Position numbers and translations under genes: made by a program. From Phormidium willei BDU 130791 (GTDB lineage Bacteria > Cyanobacteriota > Cyanobacteriia > Cyanobacteriales > Geitlerinemataceae): a DNA stretch of 64,000 nt. The DNA lies in the NCBI GenBank assembly GCA_001637315.1, contig LSZA01000005.1:1-64000 (forward strand). The letters run 5' to 3'. Of this stretch, positions 38,509-55,102 are shown piece by piece; positions within the stretch are counted from its first letter, which is position 1; every line of letters starts with the position of its first letter. Below the pieces are notes generated by a model. That model was given only the letters and a program-made list of their open reading frames with translations. It did no database searches and had not been told where the DNA came from.

Positions 38509-38829
38509 ATGAAAACTCCCCTAAACATAATTCTTGACCAAACCTATCAAGGGCTAAAGAAAATTTATAACCAAAAACTTGATCAGGTTATCCTCTATGG
38601 ATCTCAAGCCAGAGGAGATGCAGAACCAGACTCAGATATTGATATTTTGATTGTGTTAAGACAAGATTTTAGCTACTCCCAGGAAAGTAATAAAATTAGT
38701 CAACTCATTGCTCGGTTATGCCTAGAACATGATACTCTAATTAGTTGCGCCTTAGCGAGTCGTCGTCAACTCGAAGACTATAATAATAGTTTCTTTCGTA
38801 ATGTTCGACGTGAGGGAATTCGTCTATGA
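38509..38829 (+). CDS. MNT-type minimal nucleotidyltransferase (antitoxin-like)
   Basis: A 106-residue protein with the minimal nucleotidyltransferase signature: VILYGSQARGDAEPDSDIDILIVL gives the GSxARG motif and the Asp dyad DxD. In the MNT-HEPN (MntA-HepT, type VII) toxin-antitoxin pairs, this protein AMPylates and silences the HEPN ribonuclease. Its TGA overlaps the ATG of a HEPN-like reading frame (ATGA, 38826-38829), the standard layout. The partner is broken (next entry), so this antitoxin may be an orphan. It is intact by length and motif. Confidence 0.88.
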   Translation: MKTPLNIILDQTYQGLKKIYNQKLDQVILYGSQARGDAEPDSDIDILIVLRQDFSYSQESNKISQLIARLCLEHDTLISCALASRRQLEDYNNSFFRNVRREGIRL

Positions 38830-39081
38830 CCCCGGAACAACAGAAACTGCTAAAAAAAGCCACTCGTAGCTTAGAAGCGGCACGAGAACTCAATCATAAA
38901 AGTTTCCTGATTTTGCCGCCTCGCGTACTTATTACGCCATGTTTTATATTGCCACTGCTTTTTGAGAAGGAGAGGGATTATCTTATTCTAAACATTCAGC
39001 AGTTATTGCTGCATTTATGGAGAAGAGATGCTGAATTTTGCGTTAGAAAATCTTGATTCATTGCCTCCTAATTCTCCTTGA
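38826..39081 (+). pseudogene. degenerate HEPN-domain toxin (HepT-like)
   Basis: The frame starts well (LLKKATRSLEAARELNHKSF) as a HEPN protein. The next conserved block (DFAASRTYYAMFYIATAF) is found only in another frame from base 38909, implying an indel just before it. In that frame a TGA at 38963 interrupts the gene, and the continuation (GEGLSYSKHSAVIAAFMEK) is again HEPN-like until a second stop at 39032. A further frame stays open to 39081. The C-terminal RNase motif (RxxxxH) is not recovered. At least one frameshift and one stop make toxin activity very unlikely. No single frame encodes the full domain. Confidence 0.85.
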
Positions 39082-39142: not shown

Positions 39143-39550
39143 TCAATTATTGTCGATTGGATGCCCGGTAAAACGCGAATATTTCATGTGACCCGACATG
39201 TTTAGACCCGATATCGCGACCATCCCTTTGAGCTTTTTCTCAAAGTAAATCAACCCGCCAATCCGGCTTTCAACCCAAAAACTACCATGAATAAACTCAT
39301 AGTCAGGAATTTTGATTAAAAAGATGTTTCGTGGGTCTTTTTTGACAATTTCTTGACTGAGCATCGGGATGACTTGTTGTAGGAAGGGATGCTCCACAGG
39401 TTCGCCAAACTCGATAAACTCAGGATGATCGGCAAATCTGTCCATGTAGTATTCCCACAACTTGCCTAGGTCTTTTTCGCGATTGAGCCTCATCTCTAGG
39501 TCTTTTAACCGTCTTAGGTTGAATGAGGGCTGGGGTTTAGGTGTTGACAT
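39143..39550 (-). CDS. conserved hypothetical protein
   Basis: A 135-residue soluble protein that I do not recognise as a named family. Visible features: a basic helical N-terminus (FNLRRLKDLEMRLNREKDLGKLWEYYMDRFADHPEFIEFG), then a beta-rich C-terminal half (IFLIKIPDYEFIHGSFWVES, GGLIYFEKKLKGMVAI), which looks like a small binding domain rather than an enzyme. There is no signal peptide, membrane span or Cys cluster. It stands alone on the minus strand between the toxin-antitoxin remnant and the response-regulator gene. Base composition and codon use look native, and the frame is long, so it is probably real. Confidence 0.65.
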   Translation of the reverse strand: MSTPKPQPSFNLRRLKDLEMRLNREKDLGKLWEYYMDRFADHPEFIEFGEPVEHPFLQQVIPMLSQEIVKKDPRNIFLIKIPDYEFIHGSFWVESRIGGLIYFEKKLKGMVAISGLNMSGHMKYSRFTGHPIDNN

Positions 39551-40359: not shown

Positions 40360-40443
40360 CTATCGTTGCATCTGCGCGTGTGATTCCTTTCTCTAGGATA
40401 GCTCTAGTGGGCATCAATGCAGGTTGGGAGGCGTGAATCGGGG

Positions 40444-41799
40444 TCATTTCCGGTGAATCCCATAGCAAAAACGCCCTAGGGTGGGATTGGCTTCACGGAT
40501 GGGGCTTTGTAGCTGGCGTAGGAATCTGGCTAAGTTATGGGTTCTGGAGCCGTCTTCTTCGTTCTGCTCAATGGTCCAGGCTTGCCACCAACTGGGTTCG
40601 CCTAAGTCTTGGGCGATCGCATCAACTGTAAAGGTGTAAATTCCTGGTTCGAGGCGATCGCTGTGAAGGGTCACTCGAAGATGAAGGGTATTCTCCTCAA
40701 TCCTCCAGTCAGAAAGTTCTAAGGCCTCCTTGAGTCTGGGATTATCGTCAACCGGCTCTAACTTCTGACTGAACTCGTTGACTTGTTGCACGGCTATCTG
40801 AGTTTGGAGTTCTTCAAGGGGCGAGATGTGGGGAAACTTGGAAATCGGGATCTGGTAATCGATCTGAATGGGTCCGGTCTGATCCGACTCAATCTCCAAT
40901 AAATCTGTTAAATGATCTGGCGCTTCAATAATAATTTGACGATTATTGAGGCGAACTGGACGATTGACTCCTGAGATGCTGTCTAATCCTGGTTTTATTT
41001 CAGGCAAGCCAACAGGATTCATTAAAATTTGATTGGGGGAGAAAAGGCTGACCTCAACTTGATTTTGGATAGTATTTATTTCAGACATTGTTTTCTCGAT
41101 GGCATCTTGAACGTTATCTAAATCACCTAAAAATAGGACATAAAAGGGACGCTCTCCAACCCAGTAAAATGAATTAGCCCCAATTCCAATATCATAAATT
41201 TCTCCATCAAAAGAGCTGCGAACACCAATCAAGCCAACAGCATAGCTCTGATTTGAATTGCGGAGATAATCACTTTGAATTAAACGACTCAGTTGGGTTA
41301 GGTCTGCATCTTCTTCGTAGATATCACTGACGATAACCGTCAAACGATCATCCTCTTGATAACGCTCAATAGCATCGGCAGCCCGACTCATTTCTAAAAA
41401 GGGAAACTGGTCACTACTTCCACTATAAAAAATGGTCTGCTTGGCTCTCAGGTAATCACCGCGAGCAATGGACTCAGATAAGATTCTTTCAGTTTCATCC
41501 CAAGGCTGATCCAAGGGGCGGCCGAGACGATAGTAGTTCACCTCCGCGTTGGGATGAGGGGGACGGGTTTGAAACACGCTGTCAAGTGCGTCGATCATAC
41601 GGATGTAAGCACTGTCTGTCGTCCCCGTTACAAATCCTTCCATTGATGGTGTGCCATCAATAAACACATCAATCGCTAAATCCTGAGGCGATGCTACATC
41701 AGGAGTATTCGGGAGCGGACACTCAAAACTTTCGTTAGGGACGCAGCCAGAACCGAATACTAGGGCGATCGCGACCATCATCCATCGCCGTGGAGCCAT
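40444..41799 (-). CDS. vWA-like lipoprotein, divergent member of the 40-53 kb gene cluster
   Basis: A 451-residue protein. From ATG 41799 (GAGGA ribosome-binding site 9 nt upstream) it has a lipoprotein signal peptide (MAPRRWMMVAIALVFGSGC, lipobox Cys19), so it is probably anchored on the outer face of the cytoplasmic or outer membrane. Residues about 42-230 look like a von Willebrand A fold: AIDVFIDGTPSMEGFV gives a MIDAS-type D-x-T-x-S (Asp48, Thr50, Ser52) and LTVIVSDIYEED a later Asp. The C-terminal 220 residues are beta-rich (IIIEAPDHLTDLLEI, LHLRVTLHSDRLEPGIYTFTVDA). It is divergent from the membrane-tubulin-Hsp70 run, with a shared 300-bp control region, which implies joint function. 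Not a family I can name. Confidence 0.75.
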   Translation of the reverse strand: MAPRRWMMVAIALVFGSGCVPNESFECPLPNTPDVASPQDLAIDVFIDGTPSMEGFVTGTTDSAYIRMIDALDSVFQTRPPHPNAEVNYYRLGRPLDQPWDETERILSESIARGDYLRAKQTIFYSGSSDQFPFLEMSRAADAIERYQEDDRLTVIVSDIYEEDADLTQLSRLIQSDYLRNSNQSYAVGLIGVRSSFDGEIYDIGIGANSFYWVGERPFYVLFLGDLDNVQDAIEKTMSEINTIQNQVEVSLFSPNQILMNPVGLPEIKPGLDSISGVNRPVRLNNRQIIIEAPDHLTDLLEIESDQTGPIQIDYQIPISKFPHISPLEELQTQIAVQQVNEFSQKLEPVDDNPRLKEALELSDWRIEENTLHLRVTLHSDRLEPGIYTFTVDAIAQDLGEPSWWQAWTIEQNEEDGSRTHNLARFLRQLQSPIREANPTLGRFCYGIHRK

Positions 41800-42111
41800 A
41801 AGCTTGAATCCTCGTAATAGTCTTACTCGCCCCATGCTGTCAAACGCAGCAGTCAAGGCTGTTCTATCATAAAGCAGATTATTCAATTTCCCATGGGTTG
41901 CCAACCTACCGGTATGTGTGTTACTTTCGCATTACCCAGAGAAATTTGAGCTCAACCTTGCCTAAATCTGATCGTCAAACTTAAAAAGTTGTAACAGATT
42001 AAGGCTGCAACGAATCGATAACCCAGGAAACTCAGAGTACGGCTATGCGAAGCTGTTGCTGTGGCCAGCCAGCCTGTCGCCCTACTCAATTAATCTACAT
42101 GAAGGGTAACG

Positions 42112-42579
42112 ATGAAGCTACGTGAAGCGATTCGCATCATCGTTCTGGTGGTTATTGGGATTGCACTGATGTTTTTCGGACAACCTGCCTTATTCAAGGG
42201 GGGCATTATCCCGATAACCGATGTCCCCGTTGATCCGTGGATCCAGAACGACTACATGATGGCCGCGAGAATTATTTTTGCTGTCTGTCTAGTTTGCACG
42301 ATCTTATGGTGCGTTCTAACAGCGCGAGCCAGAATTGAGGGGGCTCGTCATGTTGAGCCTTGGTTTCTAACTTGGTGGGTCATTGGCTTTTTTCCCATTG
42401 TCGCCATTGGAGTCGCGCTCTATTTCTTTAATCGCAGTGAGCAAGCGCTCCTGTTCCTAACTGCCTTTTGGATTATCGATGTTCTCCTCCTCTATTGGTT
42501 AACCACGGCGATCGCCACTCCCAGGCAACTCAAATACGTCCCCCCAGGGGCGCCTTTCTTGCGTAGTATCTTTAAATAA
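42112..42579 (+). CDS. small four-span membrane protein, first gene of the cluster run
   Basis: A 155-residue protein, not recognised. Hydrophobic segments at about residues 9-27 (IIVLVVIGIALMFFGQPAL), 50-68 (AARIIFAVCLVCTILWCVL), 82-103 (WFLTWWVIGFFPIVAIGVALYF) and 109-133 (ALLFLTAFWIIDVLLLYWLTTAI) indicate four membrane spans. The C-terminal tail is short (PPGAPFLRSIFK). A strong Shine-Dalgarno (GAAGGG, 5 nt before ATG) is present. The stop lies 3 bp before the tubulin-like gene, so the two are probably translationally coupled. A likely membrane anchor for the cytoplasmic tubulin-like and Hsp70-like partners, inferred from position only. Confidence 0.75.
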   Translation: MKLREAIRIIVLVVIGIALMFFGQPALFKGGIIPITDVPVDPWIQNDYMMAARIIFAVCLVCTILWCVLTARARIEGARHVEPWFLTWWVIGFFPIVAIGVALYFFNRSEQALLFLTAFWIIDVLLLYWLTTAIATPRQLKYVPPGAPFLRSIFK

Positions 42580-42582
42580 ACC

Positions 42583-44109
42583 ATGACACTTTACTTAATT
42601 GGCATTGGGGGAACTGGTGCAAAATGTATAGAATCGACTCTACAGCTTGCCGCCGTGGGACTCTTTGACGAGCAACCGATTCGGGTTTTGTTTGTTGATG
42701 CTGACGAAACCAATGGCAACTTAACTCGCGCTCGTCAGAGTCTAACCACCTATCAGACTGCCTATCAACTTTCTCTGAAGGAACCCGCTAAGTACCCTTG
42801 GATGAGAACACCCGTTGAATCCTATGGCGTTTGGTCGCCGTTTGATGATGTCGATACCGACAAACAGCTTGGTGCGTTTTTCCAATACAATAGCCTGAGC
42901 GTTAATCAAGATAACGAAGCCCTTGCAGGCTTGTTCAATGTTTTATATACCCGGGAAGAACGCGAGACGGCCCTAGATGTGGGATTTCGAGGTCGTCCGG
43001 CGATTGGGGCCGCCATCATGAGTCAGGTGGGGATAGAAAAGTTTGAGAAGCAGCCCTGGAAAAGCCTCATTGAGGACATCAAAGCGGATGCCGGGGGAGG
43101 GGAGACCGCCCGAGTCTTTCTCTGCGGATCAATTTTTGGTGGCACAGGAGCAGCTGGCTTACCAACCATCGGACGCCTGATTTCTGACCAGCTCAAACGA
43201 GAAAATCAGCGAGAAAAAGTCAAAATTGCGGGTTTGTTCATGCTGCCCTACTTCAACTTTGCTCCCACAAGCGTTGGGGAGTCTGAGGCAGAAGTCTATG
43301 CCCGTTCCGAAAAGTTTTTGCTCAACACGGAAGCCGCACTGCGCTATTATAATAGGCAGTCGCGGGAGTGCTTTGATCACATTTATCTGCTGGGAAATCA
43401 GAACTTATCCCCAGTTGAGTTTAGCGTCGGCAAGAACACCCAGCGGAATCAGCCACATTTCTTGGAAATCTATGGTGCCCTAGCCATTCGAGAGTTTGAA
43501 TTAGCCTCTGACATTAAGTCGGGACAAGTTGGCATTATGGCTCGTCAGGCAACCGACAACCTGAACTGGGACGATTTGCAAAACAGCAAAATTAAAGGGG
43601 AACTCGTCACAGCCACCCGCTTCGCCTATGTTTGGCTCTCCAATATTGAACCTGACCTGCAAACCGCAAAAGATAAGGGAGTGGGATCATTTAAGAGGCG
43701 AGTACCTTGGTTTACTGACTTTTTTAAACCCGAGCGCGGTGGCATGAATCGATTTTTCAAGCCAGAGAGTGAGTCATTGCCTGACTTCGATGAGAGTGAA
43801 CAGGAGAAAATTCAAAGCATTACCAATTGGTGTCAGGACTATCTCCGTTGGTTGTCAGAAATTCATGACTATGAGCGTGACAGCATCAGGCTCTTTAATG
43901 TCAGTTCCTTCAAAAATCCCAATCGGCCACCTCGGGAGGGTCAGTTCTCCGATCTGATCATAGATGATCGTCGAGAGCAAAACGAGAAGGGACGAGATAC
44001 AATCCAACGACTCAGAGAAAAGCTTGATCCGAAGAGCTTGAATGCCCCAAATGAAGGTGCTGTCGGACTGGCAAAAGCACTCTATTGTGTTTGCAGTTTA
44101 GAAAACTAA
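42583..44109 (+). CDS. tubulin/FtsZ-like GTPase-fold protein (Tubulin_2 type)
   Basis: A 508-residue protein. MTLYLIGIGGTGAKCIESTL (residues 1-20) is the glycine-rich first strand-loop of the tubulin/FtsZ nucleotide fold, VLFVDADETNGNL is the second strand, and FLCGSIFGGTGAAGLPTIG (about 180-198) corresponds to the GGGTG(S/T)G tubulin signature, slightly altered. This arrangement fits the bacterial Tubulin_2-type proteins, which differ from cell-division FtsZ. The C-terminal part contains large insertions (YARSEKFLLNTEAALRYYNR, GVGSFKRRVPWFTDFFKP). Whether it polymerises is unknown. It sits between the membrane protein (3-bp gap) and the Hsp70-like gene. Confidence 0.75.
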   Translation: MTLYLIGIGGTGAKCIESTLQLAAVGLFDEQPIRVLFVDADETNGNLTRARQSLTTYQTAYQLSLKEPAKYPWMRTPVESYGVWSPFDDVDTDKQLGAFFQYNSLSVNQDNEALAGLFNVLYTREERETALDVGFRGRPAIGAAIMSQVGIEKFEKQPWKSLIEDIKADAGGGETARVFLCGSIFGGTGAAGLPTIGRLISDQLKRENQREKVKIAGLFMLPYFNFAPTSVGESEAEVYARSEKFLLNTEAALRYYNRQSRECFDHIYLLGNQNLSPVEFSVGKNTQRNQPHFLEIYGALAIREFELASDIKSGQVGIMARQATDNLNWDDLQNSKIKGELVTATRFAYVWLSNIEPDLQTAKDKGVGSFKRRVPWFTDFFKPERGGMNRFFKPESESLPDFDESEQEKIQSITNWCQDYLRWLSEIHDYERDSIRLFNVSSFKNPNRPPREGQFSDLIIDDRREQNEKGRDTIQRLREKLDPKSLNAPNEGAVGLAKALYCVCSLEN

Positions 44110-44129
44110 CAGAAGGAACGTATTACATC

Positions 44130-47100
44130 ATGCCGAATCAAGAGAAAAATCCGGAGAAATCCTTATTACTCCCCAAAGTTAAAGCGAACTGCGATGTTCA
44201 AGCTGGGGACCAGGTTGGTGCTTGGCAGATGGATGATCGGATCACCTTTGAGAATGTTGCCTCAAGTTTAGACTATCAAGCCCCAGGAGAAGTCAAAGAT
44301 ATCAGTGCCGTCCCTACGATGTGGGCGCGACCTCTCTCTTTTGAGATGGCATTACATAACTCAAACTTTCCGATTCGAGATCAGGTCATTCCCCAATGGC
44401 GAGGAATGCTGGCCGCCATTGCCTTAGCGGAAGTGCGCTCATTCCCCCTGAGTGCGAAACGGCTTAAATTGGATCAAGTTGATAATCCGTTCTCTAAAGC
44501 CCTAGTTCAACTTCTACCCGAACCCAACGCCGTCCTTTACTCGGCTAATGGTAACAATCCTTGGAAGGATCTTTATATTTTTGACTGGAGGAGTCAACCG
44601 GTGGGGATGACTTCACCGAGTACCCTCGTGGTGACCTCTGAGGAAGGGCAATGGAATGGACTGCCTTGGTGGCAGGATGGGAAACTCCAGGACCCCGTTC
44701 GCTTTCTGAATGACAATGAAAAAGCACTGTTCTGGCGGTGGCTTGACAATTTACTTTCTGAACTCAGCCAACACCAAGGACAAGGGAATGCCATTAATAC
44801 GATGACCGGGTTAGTGACAGAATTTCAGAAAAGTCTCGGGGGTCGTCCTCAAGAAAATTTGAGTCTCAGTCAAAATCCTCAGTTTTTCGGAGTCCCCATT
44901 AACATTGGAGTCTTAAAAGCACTTAACCAGCCTGTCAAAGCGAAAGCTCAACCCTCTAATGTCCGATTAATTCCTAGCCCTGACAAAGAAAATCTCCCCG
45001 ATCTCCTCATCGTCGATCCTGAGATTGCTGAAGCCTGGAATCAGCCTCCTCAGAATGTCTGGATTCATGGTGATAGAACTCTGGCTTCATTTCAGCTCCA
45101 GGGGGAAACTTCAGGTCAACTCGATGATCGCTCCGTTCGGGTCTTACAAGCCCAAGACCTATTTCTACCTGAATTAGCTTTTTTGGAAATTGAGAATGCT
45201 TTTCCGGGAGCCTTGTTGCCCTCTAGTCCTCAAAGCCTTCGTTTTAATGGTGAGGCGATTACCCCCCTCTTGCCGCTGAATCCAATTCTTTTGCAATACC
45301 TCAACCCCCAAGACTTGATCGACAAGGTGGTTAGCCTAGAGGGTTTGACGATTGACGGGGAAGGAGCCAAAGTTAGGGTCATTTTGGATTTGCCGCTATC
45401 CGGGATGAATCCAGACAGCCAAAAGCCTGAAAACTACCGCGTCTATAAAGATTATGTCCTCAAGGAAGAGAATATAGTCGTGGATGTTCCGGTCTTACAA
45501 GTTTGGCCCAATTTCCAATTGACGGGTTGGACGCACTATTATGGATTCTACTATGATGGTCAGTTGGCAGAAGACACTTTCCGGGTTAACTTTCCTGAAG
45601 CCACAGACGTTTACCCCTTCGAGGAAAAGGCGGGAAATTACCAAATTGTCCGATTTAAAAGCTTTCCGACCTATGTTGAGTGTCTAAGCGAGTATAACGA
45701 GTTGCAGGGTTTGATTGTCTTAAGTCCTCCCGAGAAAGTCAAGCCGACAGGTGACTGGAAGATTGGTGTTGATTTTGGAACTTCATTCACTAACATTTAT
45801 GTGAATCGTCAAGGTCAAGTGACCGCACCTCTTCCCTTGAAGAACTTACAACTACAGGTAACAACTGTATCTAGGGATACAAGGTTGCCGACTCTCTTTG
45901 AATTCTTTGTTCCTGAGAAATTTGTCCCAGAAAATAAGCCCTTACCACTATCATCTGTCCTAACAAATCGGGGGTTCCGAAAAGACGCAGGAGAAGATTT
46001 AGATCCTATCTTTGATGGGCGAATTTATGTGCCGGAGTTGGGAAATTTCCGGCCCGAGCAAGATTTCATCAAGACTGATTTAAAATGGTCTGCTAAAAAT
46101 CTTCCCTATAATCGTTTATTCTTAAAGCATCTCGCTTTGCACATTACAGCAATGGCGGCTCAAGATGAAGGAGGCGCACGACAGATAACATGGTGTCTCT
46201 CCTACCCATCGGCGTTTTCTCGACGTGACAAAAGAAGGCTGTCTTCTGTGTGGGAGTCAATTACCAACGAGCTAGAACAAAGTACAGGAGTCAAACATGT
46301 TTGCCCAGGGATACAGGATTTAACTCATTTCCGCACAGAGAGTTTAGCCATTGCCCAGTATTTTGCAGATAAGGAAGGCCATAACTTAGTTAGCAGTACC
46401 TGCATTGATTTGGGGGGAGGAACGTCGGATATTTCGATTTGGGAACGAAATACACTCATTCACCAATGCTCGGTTCAGCTCGCAGGTCGCGACTTGTTCT
46501 CCCAGTTTATCTCCCGCAAACCCGATTTCATCCTGAAGCACTTGGAGCAGCAAGATAAATCCCAGTGGTCTGAACTCGAAGGTCCGGCCTTTAATGCCAA
46601 GTTGGATGTTCTCTTGCGAAATGAAAGCGCCAACTGGTTGAGAACTAAGCGTAGCTTCGTCGAGGAGGAAACAGAATTCCAAGGACTGCTACAACTGATG
46701 GCCCTTGGTTTCTCCGGTCTCTACTTTTATATCGGGACGTTGTTGGGGGTGCTACATCAAGAAGGAAAATACAGTGAGCCACAAATTACACCCGTCTATA
46801 TTGGTGGAAATGGCTCTCAACTGCTGAACTGGTTAGCGGAGGATGGCCGGTTTGCTCCTGACTCGGAAATTAATGCTCTGCTAAGCAAGATGTTATGTGA
46901 AGGCTCCGAGTTTCAGGATACTGAAGAGCCAACGCGCCTGAGCCAACGTCCCAAAGATGAGGTTGCCTGTGGTCTAGTCCTGAGTCAAAGTAAGCTGAAG
47001 GGGTTAGAGCAACAAACGGAAGACCTCCTCATTGCTGGAGAAGGTTGTGAAATCAATGGTCGGCGCATCCAATTTAATGAACGGTTAGACCTTGGGGAAG

Positions 47101-47405
47101 AGAACGTCAGTCAATTTGAAGTTCCCGAGCTTGCACAACTGGCGGTATTTGTCAACTCGTTCCAGCGAGCTATCAAAACCTTACGGATTGAGGGGATTCA
47201 ACCCCTGGCAGACTATACCATCACCGATGACTATGAGGAGCAACTGGAGGAAAATGGTCAGTTGTGGCGTGAGGTGCAGCGGGAACTGACCGCTATCCTG
47301 ATTACAATGAAAGGGGACTCCCCGGATAATATCCGGGTGGAACCGCCCTTCATTCTGGCTGTGAAAGCTCTCTTGCAGGTTTTGGGTAAGAGGTGGGTGG
47401 GATAA
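44130..47405 (+). CDS. giant Hsp70/actin-fold ATPase-like protein
   Basis: A 1091-residue protein (start ATG 44130; an earlier frame start overlaps the tubulin gene). The first 535 residues have no recognised domain. From about residue 541 there is an Hsp70/actin ATPase core: phosphate-1 GDWKIGVDFGTSFTNIYV, phosphate-2 STCIDLGGGTSDISIWE (about 755) and adenosine motif PVYIGGNGSQLLNWL (about 889). No J-domain or GrpE partner and no typical Hsp70 peptide-binding domain are evident. It resembles the Hsp70-like SrfB-type proteins in motifs, not in overall length. A plausible role is an energy-using chaperone or switch for the tubulin-like partner and the membrane components. Function unproven. 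Confidence 0.8.
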   Translation: MPNQEKNPEKSLLLPKVKANCDVQAGDQVGAWQMDDRITFENVASSLDYQAPGEVKDISAVPTMWARPLSFEMALHNSNFPIRDQVIPQWRGMLAAIALAEVRSFPLSAKRLKLDQVDNPFSKALVQLLPEPNAVLYSANGNNPWKDLYIFDWRSQPVGMTSPSTLVVTSEEGQWNGLPWWQDGKLQDPVRFLNDNEKALFWRWLDNLLSELSQHQGQGNAINTMTGLVTEFQKSLGGRPQENLSLSQNPQFFGVPINIGVLKALNQPVKAKAQPSNVRLIPSPDKENLPDLLIVDPEIAEAWNQPPQNVWIHGDRTLASFQLQGETSGQLDDRSVRVLQAQDLFLPELAFLEIENAFPGALLPSSPQSLRFNGEAITPLLPLNPILLQYLNPQDLIDKVVSLEGLTIDGEGAKVRVILDLPLSGMNPDSQKPENYRVYKDYVLKEENIVVDVPVLQVWPNFQLTGWTHYYGFYYDGQLAEDTFRVNFPEATDVYPFEEKAGNYQIVRFKSFPTYVECLSEYNELQGLIVLSPPEKVKPTGDWKIGVDFGTSFTNIYVNRQGQVTAPLPLKNLQLQVTTVSRDTRLPTLFEFFVPEKFVPENKPLPLSSVLTNRGFRKDAGEDLDPIFDGRIYVPELGNFRPEQDFIKTDLKWSAKNLPYNRLFLKHLALHITAMAAQDEGGARQITWCLSYPSAFSRRDKRRLSSVWESITNELEQSTGVKHVCPGIQDLTHFRTESLAIAQYFADKEGHNLVSSTCIDLGGGTSDISIWERNTLIHQCSVQLAGRDLFSQFISRKPDFILKHLEQQDKSQWSELEGPAFNAKLDVLLRNESANWLRTKRSFVEEETEFQGLLQLMALGFSGLYFYIGTLLGVLHQEGKYSEPQITPVYIGGNGSQLLNWLAEDGRFAPDSEINALLSKMLCEGSEFQDTEEPTRLSQRPKDEVACGLVLSQSKLKGLEQQTEDLLIAGEGCEINGRRIQFNERLDLGEENVSQFEVPELAQLAVFVNSFQRAIKTLRIEGIQPLADYTITDDYEEQLEENGQLWREVQRELTAILITMKGDSPDNIRVEPPFILAVKALLQVLGKRWVG

Positions 47406-47420
47406 CACCGGCTCACACCC

Positions 47421-47452
47421 CGATTCTGGGAGACCGATATCCCCCAGAATCG
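47421..47452 (+). terminator. hairpin after the Hsp70-like gene
   Basis: A perfect 10-bp inverted repeat (CGATTCTGGG at 47421-47430, CCCAGAATCG at 47443-47452) with a 12-nt loop lies 15 nt past the stop. Only a weak T-run follows (ATTTTC, 8 nt later), so it may give partial termination and set a lower level for the next four genes. Confidence 0.5.
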
Positions 47453-47522
47453 ATGGCTATTTTCTGCATCAGTGAATCTATAGATATTCCATTGTGTTCC
47501 AAAAAACAAAAATTTTGTAAAT

Positions 47523-48545
47523 ATGAGTCAAAAGACATGCCCAGTTTGTGATACTCGTAATCAGGTGATTTATGGCCAAATTAAGCTATGCACAGGTTGT
47601 GGATTTCCCTTGTTTCCCTGGGAGCAATACACAACGATGAATCCTCCCGCTTCAGGTCATCCCATCCAACCAATCTTTGAATGGTCTAAAAATAAGTTGC
47701 GCGAGATAGACCAATTACACAATGAACTATCAAATAAGAATAAAGCAATAGAGAATCTTCAAACAGAATTAGATAGCGCTAGAGCTCAGATTGACAATAA
47801 AAACCTCGATCAGACAACTCAAGTAGCACAATTAGATGATTCGGGAATTGAGAAAACTGCTCTCGAAGTAAATACAGAAAATGAGGATTTATGGGAGCAA
47901 CTAAAACCTCATGTTAATCAGGAAATCCGGGAACAACAAAAGGCCTTGGCCAAGCATTTTATGGATCATCTTAATAACATGAGGGACAAGATTCAAAAGG
48001 ACATTGAAGCTAGATTCAAAGAACAGAACCAAATAGAGTTACCAGATCAGACTCAGAGTGATCATGACTCTAGCTGGTCTGAAACATCAAGTGACACCTT
48101 GTCTTCGCCAAGACAAGATACGATAGGTGCAAATACAGAAATTCAATCTTCTAGAGTCACTTCATCAAGTATAGATTCACAGCCCCATGATTGGTCTTGG
48201 CTTCATGATAGTAAGCCTGATGATAGAACTGTTGTTTCACCAGACAACATAGAAGAAATGCGGGCTAAAGATGCACCTATTCTTTTGACGCAACAGACGC
48301 GGGGTAACTACTGGATTGTTAAACATCCACACAGTAGCATTTTTTATTTAGTACCGGACCCCAAAATCAGCTTTAATGAACACAACATTGAGTATGCAAA
48401 AAAAATATTTAACTGTCAAAACTATGATGATTTGAAGCGACAAACCTTCCAAGTGCAACAACCAGCGATTGTAAAACAACTAGAAACAGAAAAAAAATGG
48501 GAAATACAGGAGAAAGGCAAGTTAATATTTGTCAGCAGGAATTAA
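47523..48545 (+). CDS. zinc-ribbon and coiled-coil protein with shared C-terminal domain (copy 1)
   Basis: A 340-residue protein. A short zinc ribbon opens it (CPVC at residues 6-9, CTGC at 23-26). A coiled coil (about 50-110, REIDQLHNELSNKNKAIENLQ) and a polar, low-complexity linker follow. The C-terminal 90 residues (about 251-340) contain ILLTQQTRGNYWIVK, IFYLVPDPKISFNE, KIFNCQNYDDL, and a final strand KWEIQEKGKLIFV. The same pattern recurs in the next three genes. Visibly more AT-rich than eno or mutL. No ribosome-binding site is evident. I do not recognise the shared domain; a peptide- or protein-binding role is a guess from its small beta-rich look. Confidence 0.72.
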   Translation: MSQKTCPVCDTRNQVIYGQIKLCTGCGFPLFPWEQYTTMNPPASGHPIQPIFEWSKNKLREIDQLHNELSNKNKAIENLQTELDSARAQIDNKNLDQTTQVAQLDDSGIEKTALEVNTENEDLWEQLKPHVNQEIREQQKALAKHFMDHLNNMRDKIQKDIEARFKEQNQIELPDQTQSDHDSSWSETSSDTLSSPRQDTIGANTEIQSSRVTSSSIDSQPHDWSWLHDSKPDDRTVVSPDNIEEMRAKDAPILLTQQTRGNYWIVKHPHSSIFYLVPDPKISFNEHNIEYAKKIFNCQNYDDLKRQTFQVQQPAIVKQLETEKKWEIQEKGKLIFVSRN

Positions 48546-48584
48546 ATTTTTAGCCTGGCAACAGTCCTCTACATCATATCATTC

Positions 48585-49847
48585 ATGTCAGATACAAACG
48601 AGACGAGACCCATACACCCAATTAGCAATGATCAGAAAGTTACTGCGTTAAGTTCTGATGATTTATTGGATGTACAGGATAAAGCGCTTTTTGTCGAGTC
48701 TCAGCAAGAACTGATCTCTATTTTAGAGTCAGTTCTTGCCCGTCTGGATAAAGTTGAGGCTGACAATCATCAATTGACCGAGCAAATCAAGCAGTTAAGT
48801 TACGATATCATTGAACTTAAGCAGCAAGTTTGTCTCGAATCTTTTGACGAAGGTCGTTCAGACGCAAAACCAGAGAACCAATCAGGCGTTTCTCCTAACT
48901 CGGCTGATGAAGCTTCGTTGGTGAACATCTATAACAGAACTCCGAAAACGGTCAAAAGAAACGCGGCTAAAGTGGGGGTCATCATTAAGGAAATTCGAGA
49001 AGATGAAGTTTTATTAACTATCGAAACCAACCAACATGGCTACTGGTTAGTCAATGAACTCTATCTTTTCCCTAAGAAACCATCACGATACAACGAATAT
49101 AACTTACCGACCCTAGAAGCGTTATTTATCTGTCATAATGTACAGCAGTGCAACAAGTACTTTAACTTAATTAAGCCGGCTCGTATCAGTCCTAGCCCCA
49201 GTCTGGAAACTTCTCAGATTTCTCCAGTCCACACTTGGAGGTTACTAGAAAAGGGTATACTAGAATTTACGGAAACCAAGCTCAGCCTAAGCAGCCGTCC
49301 AATTGAAACTCCGAGTCCCACACCCGAGGAGGTGTCGACCGATTCAGAACCAGAAGCAGAAGAGCTGATCCCAAAACCTAACCTAGAGAATGAGCCTGAT
49401 TTGTTGGAGAGCCGAGAGTTCGTAACGCCAAGTCCTCCTAAACCAACTCCTGTTCCTGAAGAAGAAGCTCCCCAACTCACCGCCCAAGAGCAAGAACTTC
49501 TGGAGATGTATCATTGTAGCCACCACACAGAATTTCGGAAAACTATTAAAGCAACTTGTTCCTTAGATACTGATCAAGAATTCTCAGAACACTGTTTACT
49601 TAAAGCCAATCGATGGGGAGATTGGTATATCTGTCGATACTTTGATGTTTATTATGTAACTCCTTCGAATAGGTTGGTAGTTGACCCAAATACACTTCCG
49701 CAACATAAAAATGTCATGAATATAACTTATTCGGAATCTCTATATCCAGAAGAGTTTTGCTTAGTGAAGCCCGGAGTCGTCAGGCGAAACCGCAAAGCTG
49801 AGGGCTGGGAAGTTATAGAGATGGGGGTTTTAGAAATCAACACTTAA
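48585..49847 (+). CDS. protein with two copies of the shared domain (copies 2 and 3)
   Basis: A 420-residue protein. A short coiled coil (about residues 40-85) is followed by shared domain A (about 141-228: LLTIETNQHGYWLVNELYLFP, LEALFICHN, YFNLIKPARI, TWRLLEKGILEFTE). After a Pro/Glu-rich linker comes shared domain B (about 333-420: CLLKANRWGDWYICRYFDVYYVTP, FCLVKPGVVR, GWEVIEMGVLEINT). Domain B is the most diverged copy but keeps the aromatic, YVTP and GVLEI signatures. It has no transmembrane span or enzyme motif. It could be a scaffold that bridges two ligands. It lies 39 bp downstream of the zinc-ribbon gene on the same strand. Confidence 0.72.
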   Translation: MSDTNETRPIHPISNDQKVTALSSDDLLDVQDKALFVESQQELISILESVLARLDKVEADNHQLTEQIKQLSYDIIELKQQVCLESFDEGRSDAKPENQSGVSPNSADEASLVNIYNRTPKTVKRNAAKVGVIIKEIREDEVLLTIETNQHGYWLVNELYLFPKKPSRYNEYNLPTLEALFICHNVQQCNKYFNLIKPARISPSPSLETSQISPVHTWRLLEKGILEFTETKLSLSSRPIETPSPTPEEVSTDSEPEAEELIPKPNLENEPDLLESREFVTPSPPKPTPVPEEEAPQLTAQEQELLEMYHCSHHTEFRKTIKATCSLDTDQEFSEHCLLKANRWGDWYICRYFDVYYVTPSNRLVVDPNTLPQHKNVMNITYSESLYPEEFCLVKPGVVRRNRKAEGWEVIEMGVLEINT

Positions 49848-49893
49848 GATGCTACTTTGTTTTTAAAATTTTAAAGTTTAGACAAGTCTAGTT

Positions 49894-51006
49894 ATGAAAT
49901 TTTTTCATCGCATTTCTCCTATTACTTCCCTGGTTTTAATTTCAGTCGTGCTGTTATTTTTAGCGTTTATGGCTCCTCAATTATGGAGTCAGCCATCAAC
50001 CAATTCTTCTGAGGTGGATAACAGTCCTCTGGTTTCGGAGATGAGCAAAATAGTCAATTCGGTATCATCAATTCCCCCCCCCACTGTAGAACAATTTACT
50101 GAAAGTCCTCCTACTGGAGATGCCACACAGCCAGATGCTGCTGAGCAGACACCGCTCTCTCCTGAGCAAGACCAAATCCTTCAAAAACTTGAGGACATTG
50201 CCGAGCAGAATCAGCAACTACAGTTTGAAATCCGCCAACAGGCAGACGACATCGGCCGCTCTAATCTTCTGCCTGTCATGTTAATGGTTTTAAATATTTT
50301 CATAAACTTTGTAGTTATCTTATTTTTGATAATACCTAGAGTTTTTTCATCTAACTCAACGAGAAGGGAACCTCCTCAATCAACCCAAGATAGCCAGTCT
50401 TCTCAAAGCATTTATGGGTCTCCGTCGACTCCCCCGGCATCTCGTCAAGGTACAGTGAACCCTCGCACGACATCAACTCCACAAGTCCAACCACCACCCA
50501 GTTCACGATCCAGATATCATTCAACCTCAAGACTAACGGCACGGACTCCACAACCTTCTCCAAAAAACATTCAACCATCAGCTCCAGCCTCGATTCCAAC
50601 ACCTTCACCAAGCCCTTCTACATACTCCAACGAGGCTCAAAATATTGCTGCGGCATATAACAAAAACCCAAGGCAACTGAAGCAAAATTCCACGCCTGTA
50701 TCAATTCCCAAAGAAACGATGAATCAGATTAGGTCTGGAAAATCAGTTCCAATGAATTTTACCCCAGAGAATAATGGAAATTACTGGCTAGTACCATCTA
50801 GTACAAGTTATGTAAGCTATTTGGTTCCCAAAGAAAACCTAGCTGTAAATGAAAATACCTTTGCATCATTTAGTCAGATATTTGAATCTCAAAACTATAG
50901 TAATGCTTATGCGAAAAAATATCACTTAATTGAGCCAGCCCAAGTTCAGAAAATCTCTCCCAATCAGTGGCAGTTAGTTAAACTGGGTGAAATTCGATTT
51001 GGTTGA
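49894..51006 (+). CDS. two-span membrane protein with C-terminal shared domain (copy 4)
   Basis: A 370-residue protein. Membrane spans lie at about residues 10-28 (LVLISVVLLFLAFMAP) and 125-150 (LLPVMLMVLNIFINFVVILFLII), with a loop between them containing a short coiled coil (LEDIAEQNQQLQFEIRQQADD). A Pro/Ser/Thr-rich cytoplasmic linker (about 155-280) precedes the shared domain (about 286-370: FTPENNGNYWLVPSSTSY, YLVPKENLAVNE, YHLIEPAQVQKI, QWQLVKLGEIRF). With both termini inside by the usual rules, this protein would place the shared domain at the cytoplasmic face. Same operon-like run; not recognised as a known family. Confidence 0.74.
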   Translation: MKFFHRISPITSLVLISVVLLFLAFMAPQLWSQPSTNSSEVDNSPLVSEMSKIVNSVSSIPPPTVEQFTESPPTGDATQPDAAEQTPLSPEQDQILQKLEDIAEQNQQLQFEIRQQADDIGRSNLLPVMLMVLNIFINFVVILFLIIPRVFSSNSTRREPPQSTQDSQSSQSIYGSPSTPPASRQGTVNPRTTSTPQVQPPPSSRSRYHSTSRLTARTPQPSPKNIQPSAPASIPTPSPSPSTYSNEAQNIAAAYNKNPRQLKQNSTPVSIPKETMNQIRSGKSVPMNFTPENNGNYWLVPSSTSYVSYLVPKENLAVNENTFASFSQIFESQNYSNAYAKKYHLIEPAQVQKISPNQWQLVKLGEIRFG

Positions 51007-51075
51007 CCTCCTTGCGTCCATCATTGAATTTGGCAACCTGAATCGTAGTTACAGTATAGTAAGCATCAATCACTT

Positions 51076-53088
51076 ATGGATTCTAACTTTGTTCTACAGA
51101 CCGTACGATCTTTTCAAAAAGCACTCAATGTCGCAGAAAGCAATCTAAAAATTATTCAAACACTAGAAGAGCGATTGAAAGAACTTGAGCGAGCTTTCAA
51201 TCGTAGTGGACTCAAAAATGCTATTCGGGTCACCGGTGCGATGGAAGTCCCCAGAATTGATCGATTGGAGATTTCAGCACCTGAGTTGATTGAGACCTAT
51301 AATAATGTTCCACAGGTGTTTGCTCCAAGTGCTATCCCTGTGACCGTGACCTCAGAAACTTATCGGGGGTTGTCTGATTCGGCAGTTCTTGAAATCAATA
51401 AACACGGAAGTTATTGGATTATTGCCAATACGGAGGAAACCTACTGGCTTGTTCCTAACATAACTATTCGCTTGAATCCTTACCGGATGAAAACGTTGGC
51501 TATGTTGTTTACCTGTCGGGATGAAAGCAAAGCAAATATTGATAAGTTTACATTAATTGAACCCGCGCAGCTTAAAATGATGCCCAATCAAAAAGAATGG
51601 CATTTAGTAAAAACGGGGATTTTACAATTTGGATCTGCTTCTCAGTTGAATTCAGAACAAGATATCAAAAACTTAGATTATAACTTACAAAAACTCCAGT
51701 CTAACTACGAGACTTTAACCGAGAACATTGAGCGATTATTGAAAGCAAATGAACAATTGCAAAAAGATTTAAATCATGCCGTTTTGGCACGGCAACAAAT
51801 CACTCGCGAAATCAGTGACTTACACCAAGCCAAACACAGTTTAAAGAAAAATATACTCCAGTTAGAAAACAATTTAGACACCAAACTGCAAAAAGTTCTT
51901 GACCAACATGCTGAGAGCCAACTGGTTACAGAGAACACAGCACCGAGTCAAGAAGTGACGGTAACTTCAGACGACTCAACATCCCTAGATGAGCCATTTC
52001 CCGAAAATAACATAGAGCCGTCTCTTGAGGAAGAGCTGTATTTTGAGGAAGAAGAGAGTGAAGACGTAGAAGATCATTTTCCCGATGAAGTAGCTGAAGA
52101 TGAAGAGCCATCGTTTCAAGATGTCCAGTCTCTAGAAATTTCTGATCAATCGAGTGATGAGATACCACCTCTCGTCGAAAATCATCCTATCCAACAGCCA
52201 GTTCGGATTCTCGAAGGACATAGTAGTACGGTTAAATCTCTGGTCGTCACACCCTTAAAAAAAGACCCTGGACAGTTTTCACTATTGAGTGCTAGTATTG
52301 ATAATACCATTCGCATTTGGAATCCGTTAGTCGCTCAAGAAATTGGCTGCTTGAACAATAATGCTTTTCTAAATTCAATTGCCTTAAGTCCTGATGCCAC
52401 AAAAATCATAGGCGGAGGACAAAGTGAAGTCATTACACTCTGGAATATTGCCAATTCCCAAAAAGACTATTTTGAGGGACATAGCCAATCTATTTTAGAT
52501 GTAGCGTTGTCTCCAGATGGCAACTATCTAGTCAGTGGAAGCCGTGACACAACTATTATAATTCGTGACTTTCCAGAAGGGACAATCAAGCATCACCTCA
52601 AACCTGATAATGATTTAGTATTGTCTGTTACAATTGACCCCATGAATAGCTTACTAGCTACGGGTCATTCTACGGGAGTCATTAACCTCTGGGAGTTACA
52701 ACAAGGTATATTGATTGATCAATACCAACAACACTATCAATCGGTTTGGTCCCTAGGCTTCAGTCAAGACAGTAATTTTTTGGCTAGTGTGAGCAGCGAT
52801 AAAACTTTAAAAGTATGGGATATAGCAAATTGTCAACTTTTATACCAGGTTAGTGATGAATTTAGTATTCTCGCTGTTGCTATCAGTGGGGATGGGCAAT
52901 ATATAGCGACGGGTGACTCGGGACATCAGGTTAAAATATTCAACTTCATGACTGGAGAAGAATTAGTTAGCCTGATGGGTCATACTAAAGAAGTTTATGC
53001 TCTTGTGTTTAGTCCCGATAATCGATACTTGCTGAGTGGGGGACGTGACACCACCATTGCAATTTGGCGAGTTCCTGAGATTTCTTAA
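51076..53088 (+). CDS. coiled-coil protein with shared domain (copy 5) and seven WD40 repeats
   Basis: A 670-residue protein. A coiled coil at the N-terminus (about residues 8-42) is followed by the shared domain (about 103-185: VLEINKHGSYWIIANTEETYWLVPN, MLFTCRDES, FTLIEPAQLKM, EWHLVKTGILQF). Next come a second coiled coil (about 195-285) and a very acidic linker (about 300-370). Seven WD40 units then follow from about 375 to the end (for example ILEGHSSTVKSLVV, FEGHSQSILDVALSPDG, LMGHTKEVYALVFSPD), enough for one closed seven-bladed propeller. WD40 domains scaffold complexes. Last gene of the run (69 bp after the previous one); about 244 bp separate it from the next gene. Confidence 0.8.
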   Translation: MDSNFVLQTVRSFQKALNVAESNLKIIQTLEERLKELERAFNRSGLKNAIRVTGAMEVPRIDRLEISAPELIETYNNVPQVFAPSAIPVTVTSETYRGLSDSAVLEINKHGSYWIIANTEETYWLVPNITIRLNPYRMKTLAMLFTCRDESKANIDKFTLIEPAQLKMMPNQKEWHLVKTGILQFGSASQLNSEQDIKNLDYNLQKLQSNYETLTENIERLLKANEQLQKDLNHAVLARQQITREISDLHQAKHSLKKNILQLENNLDTKLQKVLDQHAESQLVTENTAPSQEVTVTSDDSTSLDEPFPENNIEPSLEEELYFEEEESEDVEDHFPDEVAEDEEPSFQDVQSLEISDQSSDEIPPLVENHPIQQPVRILEGHSSTVKSLVVTPLKKDPGQFSLLSASIDNTIRIWNPLVAQEIGCLNNNAFLNSIALSPDATKIIGGGQSEVITLWNIANSQKDYFEGHSQSILDVALSPDGNYLVSGSRDTTIIIRDFPEGTIKHHLKPDNDLVLSVTIDPMNSLLATGHSTGVINLWELQQGILIDQYQQHYQSVWSLGFSQDSNFLASVSSDKTLKVWDIANCQLLYQVSDEFSILAVAISGDGQYIATGDSGHQVKIFNFMTGEELVSLMGHTKEVYALVFSPDNRYLLSGGRDTTIAIWRVPEIS

Positions 53089-53332
53089 GGCCTGACTGAT
53101 GATTGGGACACTAACGTGATTAGTAAGTCCGTGGAAAGATAAGCTGCCGTTATTTACGCTAGAGCATCCTAAAACCACCGATAGGTCTGCATTAGATGGA
53201 TTTTACATTTCGATACATCACACATCAAGTTTTGGGTCAACGCTGGGCCAGCTAAGTCCTATGGGTCATCCAGTCTCGGAAACCCCCACCGTATAATGGG
53301 ATACCAACAGCCTTCAGACTTGACCCTCCCCG

Positions 53333-55102
53333 ATGACCCTTCGTTTTCTTCGCCGCCATCGCCGTCTCCTTCTCCATAGCCTCGGCCGATTGAGCCTGAT
53401 TAGCATGACCGCCGTGAGTATCGCCACCGCCTCCAATTGGGCCAATCATCGCAACTACTGGAAGGGGACCATGTTTCGCGTGCAAACCGTGGACTTCAAC
53501 CTCCTCACCCACAGCTTACCCACCAAACTCTCCTATCTCCTGATTGAAAACCAACCCCAAGAAATTCAAACCACCCTAGATAGTAATTATGGACGATTTG
53601 GCTTGGTGGTCACCGATTGTGCCAGCGATCGCATCGACTGTTCCAACCAAACCATCCTCTACCAATCACCCCAAACCCCCACCCTTTCCCCCAGCGACCT
53701 AGAAAATCATCCCTTCGATCTCCTCCGAGATCCGCCGCCACTGTTCACCGAGTTCACCTACCCTCAACCCGACAACGCCAACCCCATCCCCACAAGACAA
53801 ACCAATAGCGGAGACATCATCGGCCGTGTCTATTATCGTCGCCACATTCCCCCCACATTTGCTGAAGATTATCGCGGCTGGCTCCTGAATCCCCTCCAAC
53901 TCAATGGATCTCGGTTTATTTACCTCTTGACCACCATTTTTTTTCTCACCGCTGGGGTCATGACTTGGCTGATGATCGAGATCATCCTTTATAGTCAACG
54001 CAAAAAACGCCAAGAACTGCAACGAGACGCTCAAACCCTTAAACAGCAGCTCGAAGGTCAACTCCAACAAATTCCAAAACTCCTGCAAGAACGAGAACTC
54101 GCTCGCCGGGAACTCGACGCCTACCGAGAAAAACAGCAACGGCAAACTCAAGACTTGCAGAGCTTAATCGACGACTATGAAACCCAACTCGCTGAGTTTG
54201 AAGAACAGCAACAGGACAGCGTCCAAACCCTACAACAATTAGAGCAAGAATTAGCCACCGTTATTGAGTCTAAAACCGAGGCCCAAGAGCAAATTCAGGA
54301 GCGAGAGCGCAACATCGCCCAACTCAAGAAAGTACAACAGGACAAAGACCAGCAGCAACGGGAACGAACCCAAGTTTTAGAACAGTTGCGCGAAGACTTA
54401 CAGATTGCTCAAAAGAGAGCCGCTAAAGCCCAACAGGAAACCGAAAAACTCAATCAGATTATTGCCGATCTGACCCGCGATCGCAACCTCGCCCAACAGC
54501 AATATCAAGAACTCAAACAACAACTCAACCAAGACGTCGATAACCCCGGCTTCAAAAAAGCTCTTGAAACCTCCCGTCGAGAATTAGAACGAGTCCAACA
54601 ACAAGCGCAAGAACGAGAACTTGAAGTTCTCCAAGAAAATGAACAGCTCAAAGAAGAAATCGAACAAATCATCGAAGATAACCAAGAATTTGAAATGTAT
54701 GCCCTCGAACAAAACGAACTCCTAGAACGAGAAAAATCCAGATTAATACAGCGCAACTTTGAACTAGAAGCCAATAAAATTTATATCGAAACCCGAATCC
54801 ATCAACTCGAACTCCTCGAAGAAGCCATCAAAGATAGTGACCCCGAAGACCGAGAAAAACCAATCCAAATTTATCGCCTCATTTTTTCAGAAATGCCCCA
54901 TGTCTCAGGGCAACGAATTATTAACGCCCTCAAAAAAATAGGCTTCACCGAAACCCATATCACCGGCAGCCATGCCCACCTCAAAAAAACAGAAACCCAT
55001 ACCTGTATCGTTCCCGTCCATCCCGACTTACCCCCCGGAACCCTTAAACATATCCTCAAAGACGCCCGAGTCAGCATCGAAGAACTTAAAGAACATCTCT
55101 GA
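53333..55102 (+). CDS. two-span coiled-coil sensor-like protein with C-terminal HicA-like domain
   Basis: A 589-residue protein. TM1 (about residues 13-34) and TM2 (about 196-217) bracket an extracytoplasmic domain of about 155 residues that resembles, in layout, the sensor regions of transducers (FRVQTVDFNLLTHSL, SNYGRFGLVVTDC, IIGRVYYRRHIPPTF). A coiled coil of about 275 residues follows. The last 65 residues (GQRIINALKKIGFTETHITGSHAHLKK, then PVHPDLPPGTLKHILKDARVSIEEL) match the HicA/YcfA fold, including the catalytic-type His in GSH. HicA is normally a stand-alone toxin with a HicB partner; no hicB is adjacent. Function unknown: an mRNA-binding or cleaving domain tied to a membrane sensor is one reading. 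Confidence 0.78.
   Translation: MTLRFLRRHRRLLLHSLGRLSLISMTAVSIATASNWANHRNYWKGTMFRVQTVDFNLLTHSLPTKLSYLLIENQPQEIQTTLDSNYGRFGLVVTDCASDRIDCSNQTILYQSPQTPTLSPSDLENHPFDLLRDPPPLFTEFTYPQPDNANPIPTRQTNSGDIIGRVYYRRHIPPTFAEDYRGWLLNPLQLNGSRFIYLLTTIFFLTAGVMTWLMIEIILYSQRKKRQELQRDAQTLKQQLEGQLQQIPKLLQERELARRELDAYREKQQRQTQDLQSLIDDYETQLAEFEEQQQDSVQTLQQLEQELATVIESKTEAQEQIQERERNIAQLKKVQQDKDQQQRERTQVLEQLREDLQIAQKRAAKAQQETEKLNQIIADLTRDRNLAQQQYQELKQQLNQDVDNPGFKKALETSRRELERVQQQAQERELEVLQENEQLKEEIEQIIEDNQEFEMYALEQNELLEREKSRLIQRNFELEANKIYIETRIHQLELLEEAIKDSDPEDREKPIQIYRLIFSEMPHVSGQRIINALKKIGFTETHITGSHAHLKKTETHTCIVPVHPDLPPGTLKHILKDARVSIEELKEHL

Follow-up and report, generated by a model that had tools for sequence, protein, structure and literature searches.

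Background

Tubulin-like proteins of the FtsZl1 (Tubulin_2) type are encoded together with von Willebrand factor A (vWA) proteins in operons described in 2010 by Makarova and Koonin (PMC2875224), who call them membrane-associated and give a diverged GTPase, a protein kinase and an OmpA-like protein as frequent partners. The DO-GTPase/GAP1-N2 systems of Kaur et al. 2020 (PMC7159879) are likewise membrane-proximal, with tubulin, vWA or HSP70 parts. Here, we analyze a group of eight genes, A to H, in the cyanobacterium Phormidium willei BDU 130791 that combines such components. The group spans positions 40444-53088 of the window, by which we mean the whole 64,000-nucleotide stretch of DNA analyzed (GenBank assembly GCA_001637315.1, contig LSZA01000005.1, positions 1 to 64,000 of the forward strand), and had been singled out from the sequence as a candidate undescribed multi-component system (the original prediction).

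A further set of published observations concerns the operon sll0443-sll0449 of the laboratory strain Synechocystis sp. PCC 6803, which has been listed as one SYCRP1-linked transcription unit and used for the prediction of cAMP-receptor sites (PMC2633013). Complexes with photosystems and with proteins of pilus assembly are reported for Sll0445 (Tubulin_2), Sll0446 (FtsA-type) and Sll0447, Sll0445 co-purifies with the pilus proteins Slr2015/Slr2018, and insertion mutants of sll0445, sll0446 and sll0447 each show impaired phototaxis and altered photosystem II (PSII) fluorescence (PMC9880817). In a lexA mutant, sll0443, sll0444, sll0445 and sll0448 are up 4-6-fold (PMC4759255), and Sll0445 and Sll0446 are changed in a comFB mutant (PMC12313861).

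Results

Genes A-H form a discrete island

Four congeners (G001, G003, G004 and G005) have an empty site exactly at the position of the module; in all of them, the response-regulator and HicA-fusion genes that flank it in the window adjoin each other, about 140 bp apart. When the junctions are aligned, the additional DNA maps to approximately the coordinates given in Table 1, and its content is A-H and nothing more. The GC content of the island is 44.3%, as against 53-54% in the flanks, and is the lowest of any equal-length stretch in the window. In the sister genome G002, the island is present at this same position. The open reading frame (ORF) listing agrees with the eight genes, places, strands and short gaps originally reported: one gene (A) is on the minus strand and seven (B-H) are on the plus strand, with 3-117 bp between successive plus-strand genes. 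Because of the exact empty site, the conserved order and the co-occurrence described below, the grouping goes beyond chance, and it is well supported that A-H are one real, mobile, envelope-linked module.

From the empty-site junctions it follows that the borders first drawn were right and that the flanking genes are outside the system. Both flanking genes were considered as members and rejected, since they belong to the backbone in the island-less congeners. No RNA families, tRNAs or distinctive promoter were found at the locus, where terminator-like signals were fewer than expected by chance, and no convincing CRP-like site was seen between A and B. In a check for phage origin, C was not found in the phage collection and D was not found in viral contigs.

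Conservation, co-occurrence and transfer

The order A-B-C-D is kept in 24 loci, in which the identity of D falls to about 31% and one to six genes with the S domain (a domain common to E-H; see below) lie nearby. B orthologues are located directly upstream of C in every complete locus. The exceptions are two genomes with A-B-C and D on separate contigs (G037 and G125), one with no A found beside B-C-D (G189), and a few loci consisting of D alone or of A with D. Among 292 cyanobacterial genomes, D is present in 23 (a 24th D-positive genome, at E 4e-4, was set aside), C in 21, always with D, and S in 22, 20 of which have D; S thus co-occurs with the core genes. Fisher's test for the co-occurrence of C and D gives p 5e-30, a value that ignores kinship. 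The scattered, non-co-occurring homologues named beforehand as evidence against a single system are therefore not what the genomes contain; rather, co-occurrence and order extend to other cyanobacteria.

The distribution is patchy. Most copies are chromosomal, but C and D are also present on five cyanobacterial plasmids, with copies on plasmids of Gloeothece and of Picosynechococcus. All five Synechocystis genomes analyzed have the module, each with D. In the tree of D, several families form their own clades, but G268, from the family of Synechocystis, groups with G036 of another family with full support, which points to transfer. In Bacteroidota, represented by one Prevotella record with a divergent version, homologues of A (hhalign E 2e-5), C (E 1e-25) and D (E 2e-19) occur in the same order, and the layout comprises a lipoprotein with a similar motif, a small membrane protein at the position of B, C, D, and then one coiled-coil and one zinc-ribbon protein.

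Tubulin-fold and actin-fold proteins

The assignment of C to Tubulin_2 was borne out: it scores 32.9 bits against PF13809, above the cut-off of 27, and 9/10 orthologues also match. The match covers only 68 of the 356 model positions (156-223) and is thus not full-length, whereas canonical cyanobacterial Tubulin_2 proteins cover positions 1-355 (about E 1e-105) and constitute a separate family of about 1100 aa with other neighbors; the C family is divergent and 500 aa in length. C has a T4-like loop (GSIFGGTGA[AS]G), and its T7 loop is NT[EQ][AS]AL (NTEAAL in the window) where FtsZ has NxDxxD. The catalytic acid seems to be missing, and canonical GTP hydrolysis may have been lost. No solved relative was found by sequence for C or for A.

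D is 1092 aa counted from its ATG, rather than the 1091 first given. In its AF2 model (predicted local distance difference test, pLDDT, 77), the part assigned in Table 1 matches the actin/MreB/Hsp70 fold with Z about 18. This fold, as originally claimed, stands; the label 'Hsp70-like' was too specific, because the best matches tie between MamK, MreB, FtsA and DnaK. No Pfam HSP70 match was obtained at E <= 1 although the actin-type core fold is present, and the sequence search for solved relatives gave only FtsA/MreB-level matches. The phosphate motifs DFGTSFTN and GGGTSDIS and the adenosine motif GGNGS are kept in orthologues, so that the fold, both phosphate loops and the adenosine motif together place D among the actin/Hsp70-superfamily ATPases.

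The lipoprotein and the S domain

For A, a vWA lipoprotein with a metal ion-dependent adhesion site (MIDAS) had been predicted. A MIDAS-like motif, D-x-[ST]-x-S with [TS]D, is indeed present in 10/10 orthologues, and D83, S87, M88, G90 and D194 are invariant; the lipobox (GSGC) is weak in the window protein, and good lipoboxes are found in the orthologues.

The four proteins E-H do share a domain, S, of 120 aa, with five copies among them (two in F), and the WD40 match in H is clear. There are 50 copies of S in total over 15 related loci and the window. The structure of S is predicted with confidence and has no match at E <= 0.001 in the PDB or among viral structures (best VIA-align Z 2.1). 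No span is predicted in 44 of the 73 S proteins, and in 27 of the other 29 S follows the last span. Several begin with a signal-like stretch, followed by a would-be periplasmic segment, a second span and then S. This topology, derived from a simple hydrophobicity scan, suggests that the S proteins are adaptors with the S end facing the cytoplasm. In two related loci (L021:15574-18687 and L126:4949-7879), second copies of D have the N-terminal part replaced by an S domain, suggesting that S and D work together. The idea of a machine spanning membrane and cytoplasm is consistent with these predicted locations.

Relation to sll0443-sll0449

In Synechocystis PCC 6714, the published primers for sll0445 align within C with one mismatch and those for sll0446 within D with two, as compared with minima of four and five in shuffled sequences; those for sll0447 did not map in PCC 6714. 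The orthology of C and D to sll0445 and sll0446 of PCC 6803 is thus derived from primer mapping in PCC 6714. The gene order in PCC 6714 and PCC 7338 is as here, with S-domain genes after A-B-C-D. However, A is co-directional with the other genes in Synechocystis and divergent in the window. The published description treats three hypothetical motility/photosynthesis proteins, and reports no lipoprotein, four-span protein, S domain, mobility or spread.

Comparison with other described systems

The module resembles the FtsZl1-vWA operons in that a single operon combines a Tubulin_2-type protein with membrane proteins and a putative vWA protein. It differs in having D, whereas the text of PMC2875224 names no actin-fold ATPase partner, and none of the frequent partners given there is encoded by A-H. 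Near the relatives of the module, DO-GTPases occur only in G268, OmpA/ZorB-like proteins in G020 and G171, and a kinase near the Picosynechococcus copies. Congeners carry a canonical 1100-aa Tubulin_2 separately from the module. Since that family is a separate one with other neighbors, the window module is a divergent relative of the FtsZl1-vWA operons.

Kaur et al. describe no overlap between the tubulin and HSP70 themes of their systems (PMC7159879), whereas the window module has both folds, without DO-GTPase or GAP1: neither gave a Pfam match in A-H, and GAP1 gave none in the two large proteins beside the DO-GTPases of G268. A complete iSTAND-MoxR-vWA ternary system (PMC7159879) is located between C and D in G002, but 0/3 of its genes are in the window module. 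A remote relative of the ZorA/ZorB motor pair of Zorya flanks the module in two genomes, with weak similarity (best PADLOC E 7e-9); the window's own module has no such pair. In PADLOC-DB 2023, no core protein has a specific family match, and only coiled-coil and WD40 cross-matches were seen.

The system is therefore undescribed only in part. The C and D orthologues already have phototaxis phenotypes and pilus partners (PMC9880817), FtsZ-like/vWA operons have been known since 2010 (PMC2875224), and conflict systems bearing tubulin or HSP70 have been known since 2020 (PMC7159879). In the open literature, no paper describing the whole module, or the combination of D, B and S proteins, was found; the supplements of PMC2875224 and PMC7159879 were outside this search, and a listing there is possible.

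Neighboring genes and insertion sites

The HicA-fusion gene on the right, an unusual fusion for HicA, is a resident of the genus (55-89% identical in congeners) and adjoins enolase. On the left, positions 38509-39056 encode a nucleotidyltransferase of the MNT type; its HEPN-like partner has 131 aa in congeners, but here is only a 76-aa ORF, apparently broken by a frameshift. Positions 39143-39550 encode a 135-aa protein of no known family, two copies of which are present near the same site in G001 and G003. In G005 (L152:6235-12353, reverse-complement coordinates), genes that by eye look like those of a contractile-injection (phage-tail-like) apparatus lie to the left of the response regulator. 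The site may be a general insertion spot.

The C-D junction was recognized by eye to hold Uma2-type or HEPN/MNT-like genes in several genomes of the Synechocystis family. Together with the G002 insertion at the same junction, these suggest that it may be an insertion hot spot. The repeats around the G268 copy (286 bp, direct, 95% identical; L122 4353-4638 and 25136-25421 of the joined L122+L139, G268:C86) duplicate the 5' part of a small gene; the roughly 20 kb that they enclose contains the module together with a VWA_2 protein and three GTPase-like genes. The ZorA/ZorB-like (MotA/MotB-type) pairs are at L157:3462-6180 and L158:3415-6099, and a pair similar by eye follows a canonical Tubulin_2 gene at L171:13136-15617.

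Table 1. Position and basis of the features assigned at the A-H locus
Feature	Coordinates	Strand	Basis
Island holding exactly genes A-H	40413..53278 (~12.87 kb)		empty site and GC
Gene A, putative lipoprotein with MIDAS-like (vWA-type) motif, divergent from B-H	40444..41904	-	ORF; motif
Gene B, 155-aa four-span membrane protein	42112..42579	+	ORF
Gene C, Tubulin_2-type, orthologue of Synechocystis sll0445	42583..44109	+	PF13809; primer mapping
Gene D, orthologue of sll0446; residues 1-540 without assigned fold, 541-963 actin/MreB/Hsp70-fold ATPase	44127..47405	+	AF2 model, fold match
Gene E, zinc-ribbon (CxxC...CxxC), coiled coil, one S domain (residues 240-336)	47523..48545	+	sequence
Gene F, coiled coil, two S domains (residues 112-228, 304-417)	48585..49847	+	S search
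Gene G, two-span (transmembrane 7-25, 129-147), S domain (residues 253-369) at C-terminal, predicted cytoplasmic end	49894..51006	+	
Gene H, S domain (residues 70-185), coiled coil, WD40 propeller	51076..53088	+	S search; WD40 match
S copy used for structure prediction	51283..51630	+	AF2 pLDDT 91.9, predicted template modelling score (pTM) 0.85
Left backbone gene, response regulator with LuxR-type helix-turn-helix	39667..40359	-	adjoins HicA-fusion gene in island-less congeners
Right backbone gene, membrane/coiled-coil protein with C-terminal HicA domain	53333..55102	+	at empty site in congeners; PF07927 E 7e-15

Discussion

We tentatively favor the explanation, to which we give almost an even chance, that A-H are a horizontally mobile, membrane-anchored tubulin/actin-fold machine controlling surface structures such as type IV pili. 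C and D, as cytoplasmic nucleotide-binding proteins, would form a scaffold or switch beneath the inner membrane, possibly as polymers, and B, with its four spans, would connect this scaffold to A, a lipoprotein that would expose its MIDAS-like ligand-binding motif in the periplasm. The S-domain proteins, soluble or membrane-bound with S in the cytoplasm, would be paralogous adaptors plugging clients or sensors into the C/D core. If these proteins assemble physically at the envelope with A, B, C and D coupled in this way, the output would be the control of surface structure or behavior, which in Synechocystis would be phototaxis driven by type IV pili, and the window copy would do the same job.

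Several points weigh against this proposal. The von Willebrand fold of A has no profile support (the Pfam vWA model matches 0/10 orthologues), and hhalign found no match between A and two other candidate vWA proteins. The seeming absence from C of the T7 catalytic acid of FtsZ makes active polymer dynamics uncertain. The Synechocystis mutants carry cassettes inserted into an operon, so that polar effects are possible, and their PSII fluorescence is altered, so that the loss of phototaxis may be indirect. In the Prevotella copy, the protein at the position of B has no detectable similarity to B, and S was not detected either. Type IV pili are not a known feature of Prevotella, and the pilus link thus cannot define the core. 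Finally, patchy spread, plasmid carriage and conflict-type neighbors fit defense as well or better.

The main rival, which we regard as possible though doubtful, is a conflict (anti-phage or inter-bacterial) system of the nucleoside triphosphate (NTP)-dependent, membrane-proximal kind of Kaur et al., in which A and S would sense, C and D would undergo a thresholded assembly, and the outcome would be containment or cell death. In GAP1-N2 systems, vWA proteins are combined with tubulins or HSP70 (PMC7159879). Several relatives of the module have neighbors of conflict type: the complete iSTAND-MoxR-VWA_CoxE ternary system that separates C from D in G002 (L020:910-4879), the DO-GTPases and VWA_2 protein just downstream in G268, within the stretch bounded by direct repeats, TerD upstream of the module in G031, McrBC alongside the Prevotella copy, and the ZorA/ZorB-like pair beside the module in G020 and G171. 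These are single cases. However, A-H include no recognizable effector enzyme (nuclease, NADase, peptidase or pore), no specific PADLOC match, and no DO-GTPase, GAP1, MoxR or STAND gene; the presence of the module in all five Synechocystis genomes analyzed is as expected for a resident function, and the published phenotypes are in motility and photosynthesis (PMC9880817).

Two other roles for such folds were considered. Makarova and Koonin proposed for the FtsZl1-vWA operons, in a paper that offers no experimental support for it, a membrane-remodelling or vesicle-forming machine (PMC2875224). C is a Tubulin_2 protein by Pfam and is accompanied by a MIDAS-like lipoprotein and membrane proteins, but its match is confined to a short part of the model and the canonical cyanobacterial Tubulin_2 is a different family in different surroundings, so that this role is unlikely for A-H. 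A segregation (partition) system, in which tubulin- and actin-like NTPases would move the DNA of a plasmid or island, is very improbable. The TubZ and ParM partition systems use the same folds as C and D, and five copies of the module are plasmid-borne; however, the majority are chromosomal, the Gloeothece and NIES-970 plasmids carry their own ParA, and no DNA-binding adaptor was found in the module, which has a lipoprotein and membrane proteins.

Conclusion

Somewhat short of an even chance, in our estimation, is the broader proposal that the module exemplifies an unnamed class of mobile trans-envelope machine in Cyanobacteriota and Bacteroidota, in which tubulin-fold and actin-fold NTPases would act jointly, be coupled by B to a periplasmic MIDAS-type lipoprotein and be read out by S adaptors of a new fold. 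A conserved, transferable pair of tubulin-fold and actin-fold NTPases is rare outside cell division, and here the pair moves with a lipoprotein and a putative adaptor family whose predicted fold has no counterpart among solved structures. Through the link to sll0443-sll0449 in a standard laboratory cyanobacterium, the role of divergent FtsZ-like/vWA systems becomes open to direct testing, with the control of surface motility and conflict as the two clear alternatives.

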